A stretch of DNA of 64,000 bases. Origin: Candidatus Gastranaerophilales bacterium. GTDB taxonomy: Bacteria > Cyanobacteriota > Vampirovibrionia > Gastranaerophilales > Gastranaerophilaceae. Of this stretch, positions 15,092-17,447 are shown piece by piece. The notes beneath the pieces are model-generated. The model was not told the DNA's origin. It did no database searches and was given only the letters and a program-made list of their open reading frames with translations. Made by a program: the position numbers and the translations under genes. The number at the start of each line of letters is the position of its first letter. Positions within the stretch are counted from its first letter, which is position 1. Location: contig JAFTXY010000011.1 of the NCBI GenBank assembly GCA_017461425.1, forward strand, positions 62,001 through 126,000, given 5' to 3'.

Positions 15092-15100
15092 TGTTATAAT
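15092..15100 (+). promoter_or_regulatory. Extended -10 promoter of the riboswitch-like leader
   Basis: TGTTATAAT; the start of transcription would fall near 15107, giving a leader of about 135 nt before the ATG at 15242. Confidence 0.7.
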
Positions 15101-15106
15101 TTTTTT

Positions 15107-15240
15107 AACAAAACAGGAAATTAGGGTGAAAGTCCCAAGCTGAGCCGCAGCCGTATAGCCGGAATACTGTAATAATGACAATTCTGCGGAATTTTGGAAT
15201 TTCATTTTCAGTTTTTTGGGTGCTCGGCAAAAAAGGAAAA
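15107..15240 (+). ncRNA. Cobalamin-riboswitch-like leader
   Basis: The leader shows, in order, blocks of the cobalamin aptamer: AGGAAATTAGG; the L5 hairpin GGGTGAAAGTCCC at 15124-15136; the P6 stem GCTGAGCCGCAGC (GCTG/CAGC); then GTATAGCCGGAATAC, which resembles the conserved AGCCaGGAgAC segment. A downstream TTTCATTTTCA (from ~15200) could pair with the L5 loop TGAAA, as in the kissing contact of these switches. The match is by eye; sections are shorter than in large AdoCbl switches. It leads into two genes of unknown function. Confidence 0.65.
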
Positions 15241-15241
15241 A

Positions 15242-15940
15242 ATGGTAGCACCGTACGCACAAGCAACACAACAAGGAAATAAATGTCCACATGGCTTACC
15301 TCCAGGCACATGTCCAATTTGTTCTGGCATGGGTGGTGGTTCTATGCGCAAAGATAAAGACACTCCAAGACGTCCTGGAGAAATGACATACAATGAATGC
15401 ATGGCGGCTTGGAATAAAATTCAAGCAGCTAAAGAAGCAAAAATTCAACAAAGAATAGATAGATTAGAAGCTTTAGCTCATAAAGATAATTTAAAATTTC
15501 AACAAAATATTGAAAAAATTCAAAAATCATTTGAAAAAGCATTGCAAAATATTCAAAATATGCCAGCTATAATACAAATGCCTGTTAAATTTGTGATTAA
15601 TAATATAATAATGCCGGTTTTGAATTTTGTTGCTAAAATTCCGCAAGCAATAAATAATATTCAGCAGTTTTTTACAAATGCATTTAATATAGCCGTAATG
15701 GTTGCAGATAAAGTTGTTGCTGTTTTGGGCGAAATTAAGAATTTTATTAATGCGCAAATTATTGAAAAAACTAAAAAAGCAATAAAAACAATTCTTTCTT
15801 TGTTTACTCAAAGTCAAGAAGAAAGCAAAGAAAATGAAGAAGTTGAAAAATTAAAATCTCGAGAAATAAAAAATATATTAAAAAGTCTGTTCAGAATTAA
15901 AACAAAAAATGAAGAAGAAATAGAAGAAAATGAGCATTAA
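15242..15940 (+). CDS. CPHGxPPGxCPIC-motif hypothetical protein, 232 aa
   Basis: The ATG at 15242 is chosen because AAAGGA lies just upstream and the leader RNA occupies the sequence before it. Residues 14-27 hold a compact Cys/His motif, CPHGLPPGTCPIC, likely to bind zinc or another metal. Residues ~50-100 form a coiled coil; ~105-185 are long amphipathic or weakly hydrophobic helices (PVKFVINNIIMPVLNFVAKI...) that could lie on a membrane. The tail is Lys/Glu-rich. No family recognised. It overlaps the next gene by 11 bp. The cobalamin-like leader suggests control by B12. Confidence 0.75.
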   Translation: MVAPYAQATQQGNKCPHGLPPGTCPICSGMGGGSMRKDKDTPRRPGEMTYNECMAAWNKIQAAKEAKIQQRIDRLEALAHKDNLKFQQNIEKIQKSFEKALQNIQNMPAIIQMPVKFVINNIIMPVLNFVAKIPQAINNIQQFFTNAFNIAVMVADKVVAVLGEIKNFINAQIIEKTKKAIKTILSLFTQSQEESKENEEVEKLKSREIKNILKSLFRIKTKNEEEIEENEH

Positions 15941-17447
15941 TGCTATTAAAAAACCAGTAAATAATGTACAAAAATCACAAGCGGTTAGATATGACACTGT
16001 TAAAGTCAATAACGAAGCGGTTAAAAGCGCTGCACTCAAAGGTCTTTTGTTAAAACAACATATTAAAAAGCAAGAAACAATAGAAGATTTTACTGATTTT
16101 GATAGAATTTCAACTTCTTTATTGATACCCGAACAAGTTGAAGCTTTTAAATTAAAAGAACAAGAAAAAAACAAAAAAGAAGAATTCGATATTAAAAAAA
16201 TCCTAAAACCGGCGTTAGTAGCAGCAGGAATTACATTTGCAACAGTTGGTGGCATAAGTGTAATTTTGAGAAAATATTCAAAAGTGATGCTAGAAAAGCC
16301 AGATTTGATACAGCCTGAGGATTTAGCAAGAAATATAAATATCGTTGAAGAACCTCATTTTGCAATGTATCGTGCATTGCGTGATCCTAGCGCTAAGAAT
16401 ATTTTAGGACTTGTTGGAGTTGGAGTAATGAGTATCGTTACAACAACAGGTAAAAATTTTATAGATGGTTGCAAAGAGGCTTGGACAAAGAAACAAGAAT
16501 GTAATATTAATCACGATTTGCAAGAAAATTTAATTTCTGTCGAAGCAGAAGCATTTGCCGGAAAACTAAATGTCGTTAATACTTTATTGAGCGATACAAC
16601 AAAATATTTTAAAAGTGTATTAGGTTCAGATGATAAAACGAAAATTGATTATAAAAATCATTTAAGCTTTAAGGGGAATGAAAAAATATCACAAGAAGAT
16701 AAAAATAAAATTAAAACAATAGCATCAATTGCTGTGGGCGCTGTTGGTTTAATAGGTTTATCTTATGGAATATTTAGAAATTATCAAAAAGTTTTAGGAA
16801 ATTTTGATAATTACAGTAAAAGAATGCAAGATAAATTTATCAGAGCTGATATTGAAAACGCTCTTGGAATATCTGAAAAACAAGGAAAAATAAAAAGATT
16901 AATTGAAATATTTAAAAAAACCAATGCAAAAGAAGAGCAAATTAAAGATGCTGCAAAAAGAATTGAAGGAATAACCGAAGATGAAATTTCATCTATGGTA
17001 AGAGAAGTTAGAGATGCAATTTTATATACAAATGCAGATGAAGCTGTGTATGGAACAGCAGGAAAAATCCAATATTATTGCTATATTAATGAAGATAGAG
17101 GTCATTTGTATAACTGGTTATTAAATCCTGAAAATAAATTTAATAAATATCTATTTTTATCTTTTGCTTCAATAAGCGTTCTTGGCTACACAACAAAAGC
17201 AATTGCAGAAGCTATTAAAAATACTGCCGTTGCAAAGGAAAATTCGAAAAGCGAATTAAATTTAAGGAAGCAATTGATTTCAACTGAAATTAATAATTTT
17301 AAAGCTAAAAAAATGAGCGCTATAAATCCATTGTTGGATAATTTCATTATTCAATTAGAAAAAGGTAAATCAAAAGAAGAATTAAAAGAATTAGCTGAAA
17401 CAATTTTAATTGAAATTAAAAATGGTCCTCCGTATGTATACGGCTAG
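15930..17447 (+). CDS. Multi-segment membrane protein of unknown function, 505 aa
   Basis: Begins inside the end of the previous gene, so co-translated. Hydrophobic segments near residues 90-112 (PALVAAGITFATVGGISVI), 155-172, 262-283 (ASIAVGAVGLIGLSYGIF) and 405-420 suggest three or four membrane passes separated by helical charged domains. LSFKGN near residue 248 matches the short F-[KT]-G motif found in other proteins of the window. No enzyme motif. With the preceding gene it makes a two-gene unit under the riboswitch-like leader. Confidence 0.75.
   Translation: MSINAIKKPVNNVQKSQAVRYDTVKVNNEAVKSAALKGLLLKQHIKKQETIEDFTDFDRISTSLLIPEQVEAFKLKEQEKNKKEEFDIKKILKPALVAAGITFATVGGISVILRKYSKVMLEKPDLIQPEDLARNINIVEEPHFAMYRALRDPSAKNILGLVGVGVMSIVTTTGKNFIDGCKEAWTKKQECNINHDLQENLISVEAEAFAGKLNVVNTLLSDTTKYFKSVLGSDDKTKIDYKNHLSFKGNEKISQEDKNKIKTIASIAVGAVGLIGLSYGIFRNYQKVLGNFDNYSKRMQDKFIRADIENALGISEKQGKIKRLIEIFKKTNAKEEQIKDAAKRIEGITEDEISSMVREVRDAILYTNADEAVYGTAGKIQYYCYINEDRGHLYNWLLNPENKFNKYLFLSFASISVLGYTTKAIAEAIKNTAVAKENSKSELNLRKQLISTEINNFKAKKMSAINPLLDNFIIQLEKGKSKEELKELAETILIEIKNGPPYVYG

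Follow-up and report, generated by a model that had tools for sequence, protein, structure and literature searches.

What do two proteins without a known family do behind a cobalamin riboswitch? The question is raised by a 64-kb stretch of DNA, the window, from Candidatus Gastranaerophilales, gut-dwelling, non-photosynthetic kin of cyanobacteria; the genome to which it belongs (G000) is assembled in 18 contigs. An earlier note had read a B12-aptamer-like leader in front of genes for a 232-aa protein (P0001) and a 505-aa protein (P0002). This reading was borne out by the Rfam score and by conserved linkage, and at the sequence level both the riboswitch and the conserved operon can be regarded as established. 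The features of the window are:

778-2577, - strand: radical SAM protein whose B12-binding domain stays below threshold (domain search)
15092..15100, + strand: extended -10 element TGTTATAAT, without a good -35
15099..15176, + strand: cobalamin riboswitch aptamer, RF01689 AdoCbl-II (cmscan; conserved core and P3 covariation, 87 leaders)
15115-15125, + strand: aptamer block AGGAAATTAGG
15124-15136, + strand: aptamer block GGGTGAAAGTCCC
15139-15151, + strand: aptamer block GCTGAGCCGCAGC
15145..15150, + strand: L5 side of the kissing loop, CCGCAG, with the loop part CCG at 15145-15147 (inverted repeat I18)
15157-15167, + strand: aptamer block AGCCGGAATAC
15184..15189, + strand: L13 side of the kissing loop, CTGCGG (inverted repeat I18)
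15200-15204 and 15206-15210, + strand: two copies of TTTCA
15205..15241, + strand: putative hairpin sequestering the Shine-Dalgarno sequence, with 15205-15218 pairing to 15228-15241 (79% complementarity; inverted repeat I6)
15219..15252, + strand: predicted alternative hairpin, GGTGCT 15219-15224 with AGCACC 15247-15252 (inverted repeat I19; seen when the downstream part is folded)
15233..15237, + strand: Shine-Dalgarno sequence AAGGA, 4 nt from the ATG at 15242
15242..15940, + strand: P0001, 232 aa, with the CPHGLPPGTCPIC motif, a glycine run and long amphipathic helices (ORF; homologs in 96 of 146 genomes)
15930..17447, + strand: P0002, 505 aa, internally duplicated helical membrane protein (ORF, profile self-comparison)

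When the window was searched with 4227 Rfam families, two matches were obtained: a tRNA, and RF01689 with 37.8 bits, where the curated gathering threshold is 36.5. Its E value is 2e-5 when the whole 64 kb is searched and 1.4e-7 when the search is confined to 401 bases. At 77.7% completeness, the genome contains no second RF01689 match. All sequence blocks named in the earlier note were found at the positions given there. As the score barely exceeds the cut-off, comparative evidence matters. Among 87 aligned aptamers of relatives, the window included, conservation at the core positions is 94-100%. The P3 stem (15123-15126 with 15134-15137) alternates between GC, AT and TA pairs with pairing kept. 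Over the whole structure 255 double-sided changes were counted; 500 column shuffles, which as a control are blind to relatedness, gave no more than 188. P1, as drawn and aligned from Rfam, is not conserved among the 87. By sequence, the leader is a class-II-type cobalamin riboswitch, for which cobalamin binding is predicted.

The aptamer and the operon are kept together. RF01689 is present in 116 of 146 related genomes and homologs of P0001 in 96, and in 86 of these 96 the aptamer lies 62-334 nt (median 113.5) upstream of the homolog on the same strand and contig. Ten homologs are not preceded by RF01689, and nine of them (G107 being left out of the breakdown) fall into four groups: RF00174 takes its place in G089, G095 and G108, a sub-threshold aptamer core precedes the gene in G022, G092 and G098, G105 gave no aptamer match at E 0.05 or better, and G012 and G014, two rumen genomes of the window genus, keep the operon behind a short leader from which the aptamer has been lost. 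The latter two (loci L102 and L103) retain a TGTTATAGT-like promoter and represent a natural loss of the switch. Named records encoding the 505-aa protein come from Candidatus Gastranaerophilales and other gut or rumen metagenome assemblies.

Directly 5' of the aptamer a TGNTANNNT element was found in 40 of 85 leaders, compared to 7.7 expected from shuffles. A sigma-70 scan in which a -35 element is required does not list the TGTTATAAT element of the window, and judged by its sequence the promoter looks like the extended -10 type.

For the class, it has been described that the L5-L13 kissing loop stabilises P13 and a hairpin hiding the ribosome binding site, so that cobalamin binding leads to repression, and in one member that has been studied, L5 acts through CCG and L13 through CGG (PMC10653944). 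An activating corrinoid riboswitch is also known. In the window, CCGCAG is perfectly complementary to CTGCGG (L5-L13 pairing). A downstream Watson-Crick partner of L5 of at least 5 nt was detected in 37 of 94 distinct leaders, compared to 14.2 expected from dinucleotide shuffles, and one of at least 6 nt (6-7 nt) in 12 of the 94, compared to 3.0 expected. The two sides covary, as in GACCGCA/TGCGGTC, GGCCGCA/TGCGGCC and GGTCGCA/TGCGACC. In several of the leaders with 6-7 nt the partner tops a hairpin, for example TTCCTTGCGC-TGCGGTC-AAATAGCACAAGGAATTTTTATG, whose stem (TTCCTTG...CAAGGAA) carries the Shine-Dalgarno sequence in its 3' arm. TTTCA, proposed before as the partner of the GTGAAA loop, was rejected, because this loop is not L5 and L5 has the 6-nt partner described above.

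An L5 partner in the loop of a hairpin with a Shine-Dalgarno arm represents the anatomy of an OFF switch. With B12 bound, L5 (CCG) of the aptamer would kiss L13 (CGG) of the expression platform, and this would favour a hairpin hiding the Shine-Dalgarno sequence and the start of the 232-aa gene; the operon would be OFF with B12 and ON at B12 shortage. This sign of the switch we infer from the leader sequences and from analogy to the studied members of the class. Either of two modelled hairpins is a candidate for masking the Shine-Dalgarno sequence in the window: that at 15205-15241, which shows no base-by-base conservation and differs from the MFE fold, or that at 15219-15252, which is predicted to enclose both the Shine-Dalgarno sequence and the start codon.

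The aptamer order, the GTGAAA loop, the CCG L5/CGG L13 kissing loop and a Shine-Dalgarno sequence near the platform hairpin are shared with the class II cobalamin riboswitches (RF01689; env8HyCbl etc., clan CL00101). Unlike the targets of these, the genes controlled here are not those of B12 synthesis, known transport or known isoenzymes.

Both ORFs exist, and their overlap of 11 nt suggests translational coupling of P0001 and P0002. P0002 follows P0001 directly in all 41 loci examined. For P0001, substitutions relative to two relatives amount to 73/43/115 and 70/43/109 at codon positions 1/2/3, which is a coding pattern. Eight columns are invariant in 41 homologs, including C15, P16, H17, G18, C24, P25 and C27; the resulting CPHG...CP.C motif corresponds to a CxH-x6-CxxC pattern of metal-binding type and is followed by the glycine run and the amphipathic helices. 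P0002 contains three clear and one weaker hydrophobic segment, and its halves are homologous to each other (probability 97.9%, E 5e-13, when their profiles are compared).

Neither protein reached the cut-off of any Pfam or NCBIfam family, and the PDB contained no significant match. The best profile hits, FtsH over a helical stretch for P0001 (E 0.004) and designed helical proteins for P0002 (E 0.15), were taken as an effect of composition. The structure models reach a mean pLDDT of 64, a low confidence, and show no recognisable fold of a transporter, a binding protein or an enzyme; fold matches were set aside, as the best Foldseek E was 0.13 and the best VIA-align Z of 8.6 reflects a generic long-helix arrangement within the range common for helical models. 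The products have no apparent signal peptide or outer-membrane part, no FecCD permease domain (PF01032) such as marks the BtuBCDF importer, and in Pfam and NCBIfam no homology to NrdD, NrdAB, MetE or similar isoenzymes. A relation to BtuM or ECF-type proteins was likewise not indicated by Pfam, NCBIfam or PDB matches, the models being of low confidence, and no relative was found on viral contigs.

P0002 is followed in 18 of the 41 loci by a third protein family of about 150-190 aa, for which no Pfam match was obtained. Most other genera have this protein, at about 160 aa; in the window genus it is not linked downstream of the operon. In G017 (L223:73-750) it is located immediately upstream of the riboswitch and not downstream of the operon, an observation that is provisional, the contig ending there.

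The P0001-P0002 operon is the commonest target of the riboswitch in the order. Within the order and class the same RNA also precedes NrdDG, NrdAB, BtuB-BtuC-BtuD-BtuF and MetE, as well as a B12-binding radical SAM protein and an OprB porin with CbiM. Judged by sequence, these other targets are the textbook B12 regulon and all classic, which argues that the RNA still reports B12. At L204:2567-3988 and L207:1581-3593 the gene downstream of a B12 riboswitch encodes a porin of the OprB family (PF04966), with CbiM coming next at one of the two loci, and an outer-membrane route for cobalt or a corrinoid is possible there. In some genera (L071, L096) the operon adjoins a second, divergent NrdDG operon that is itself controlled by a riboswitch.

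In families f10 and f12 of the class, the same riboswitch precedes a different pair of proteins without an assigned family (L074:1549-4032, L075:1414-3846, L076:1414-3943, L077:1650-3170, L212:1676-3130 and L215:1340-3865). The large protein (about 500-590 aa) has repeated LDSxFS-type hydrophobic segments and the small protein of f12 (about 230-255 aa) six or seven consecutive glycines. BtuC is missing from these genomes, and many have CobS. Homology of the f12 pair to P0001 and P0002 is not clear: P0002 matched the large protein with a probability of 1.6%, P0001 the small one with 84% over a low-complexity helical stretch, and the profile searches do not cross.

The operon was then set against markers of B12 dependence in 110 genomes of the order, with counts uncorrected for shared ancestry. 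CobS is present in three of the 110, none of which has the operon. Outside the window genus, the operon occurs in 58 of 60 genomes with NrdJ and without CobS, compared to 10 of 19 without NrdJ (Fisher 2e-5, a value that ignores shared ancestry). The two exceptions among the 60 are G096, with BtuBCDF under the riboswitch, and G090, with CobT beside a riboswitch. BtuC was detected in 14 of the 110 genomes, nine of which also have the operon, and TonB plug domains in 15; five genomes without an RF01689 match are also without the operon. In G000 there is no match to PF01032 and no Plug domain (PF07715) of a TonB-dependent receptor such as BtuB. These counts indicate that the operon tracks dependence on external B12.

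Within the window genus the operon is present in 28 of 28 genomes, and NrdJ was found in none. Neither a CobA- nor a PduO-type adenosyltransferase occurs in any of the 28, though the AdoCbl-type riboswitch is kept, and BtuC is present in two. QueG was rejected as the remaining B12 user, since it was not found in the whole order, this genus included. A B12-binding domain was matched in 27 of the 28 genomes; the protein concerned is mostly about 475 aa long. This pattern fits a continued need for non-adenosylated cobalamin and is no less compatible with a function that has nothing to do with B12 enzymes. The product of 778-2577, described in the earlier note as a B12-dependent radical SAM enzyme, is indeed a radical SAM protein, encoded on the minus strand; its B12-binding domain reaches 19.4 bits against a cut-off of 32.1 and points only faintly to B12 dependence.

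We favour the reading that P0001 and P0002 serve the acquisition or handling of B12 and are repressed by B12 through the kissing-loop switch, a view to which we give slightly less than an even chance. P0001, with its metal-type CPHG..CPxC motif and amphipathic helices, and P0002, duplicated and with three to four segments, would form an inner-membrane-associated system. It would acquire or handle corrinoids in bacteria that cannot make B12 and are mostly without Btu. The partnership of the two proteins we infer, and the role in acquisition is suggested by the phylogenetic profile, which lends the new uptake or handling system of the earlier note indirect support and upholds it to that extent. 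That P0001 and P0002, elsewhere together with the third protein, make up an undescribed corrinoid acquisition system of Gastranaerophilales replacing Btu transport is put forward more tentatively; such a system would have no sequence kinship to known importers, the B12 riboswitch being its only known regulator. Against acquisition speaks that the window genus keeps the operon after losing NrdJ, both adenosyltransferase families and QueG. The same holds for the nine genomes that have BtuC beside the operon, for the retention of the operon in G012 and G014 after loss of the switch, and for the absence of a recognisable fold, signal peptide or outer-membrane part.

A response to B12 starvation is a serious possibility, though one we would sooner doubt than accept. 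The operon would then take no direct part in moving B12 and might, for example, stand in for a B12-dependent process with a function in the envelope, an organelle or stress. This would agree with the riboswitch-controlled B12-independent isoenzymes (NrdDG, NrdAB, MetE) of the same genomes, with long helices and amphipathic segments that look structural and not transport-like, with the retention of the operon in the window genus though few B12 enzymes remain, and with its absence from CobS genomes, which are free of B12 shortage. However, neither protein resembles an enzyme, and the operon persists where a B12-dependent counterpart to replace is lacking (no NrdJ, rarely MetH).

It is improbable that in the window genus the RNA answers methyl- or hydroxocobalamin or another corrinoid and that the operon is close to constitutive. 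The missing adenosyltransferases, the two genomes of the genus from which the aptamer is gone and the low score in the window would be explained, but the core positions stay 94-100% conserved over the 87 leaders, that of the window among them, and AdoCbl could be imported. A chance resemblance of the RNA, suggested by a margin of only 1.3 bits over the cut-off, is so improbable that it can be dismissed, because the linkage to the operon is conserved and homologous leaders reach 54 bits for RF01689 at the equivalent place.

Returning to acquisition or handling of B12 as the preferred reading, several known systems can be compared. The ppe2 B12 riboswitch of Mycobacterium tuberculosis, a class IIb-like OFF switch, likewise precedes a protein that is restricted to a lineage and whose function is uncertain (PMC11260477). 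There, however, the protein is a member of the PE/PPE family with cobQ/cobU downstream; the proteins described here are unrelated, and the present operon is far more widely conserved within its order. According to PMC6072759, membrane proteins for B12 uptake are not known for most prokaryotes. Like BtuM and other non-Btu uptake proteins, P0001 and P0002 are candidates for uptake in bacteria without BtuCDF; BtuM ligates cobalt through a cysteine, and cysteines are invariant in P0001. No sequence relation to BtuM was found; P0002 differs from it as a long-helix protein with an internal duplication, and the Cys/His residues reside in the small partner of P0002. In some relatives (L066, L208, L209) RF01689 precedes BtuB-BtuCDF as well; this system is not homologous to the operon and is missing from G000 and most of the family. 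In the open-access literature no paper joining Gastranaerophilales and a riboswitch was found, and an earlier description elsewhere is possible; Melainabacteria and cobalamin riboswitches co-occur in one long review with one mention each.

Taken together, the pairing of aptamer and operon is kept across nearly the whole order, in which the standard B12 importer is mostly missing, and two protein families without known relatives join the B12 regulon. Their sequence context makes P0001 and P0002 good candidates for a new route by which B12 is acquired or handled. In an order of common animal-gut bacteria that has an AdoCbl-dependent ribonucleotide reductase, that is almost devoid of CobS (3/110) and that mostly has no BtuCDF or TonB receptors, the retention of a riboswitch-controlled operon makes the question of B12 uptake testable on two named genes.
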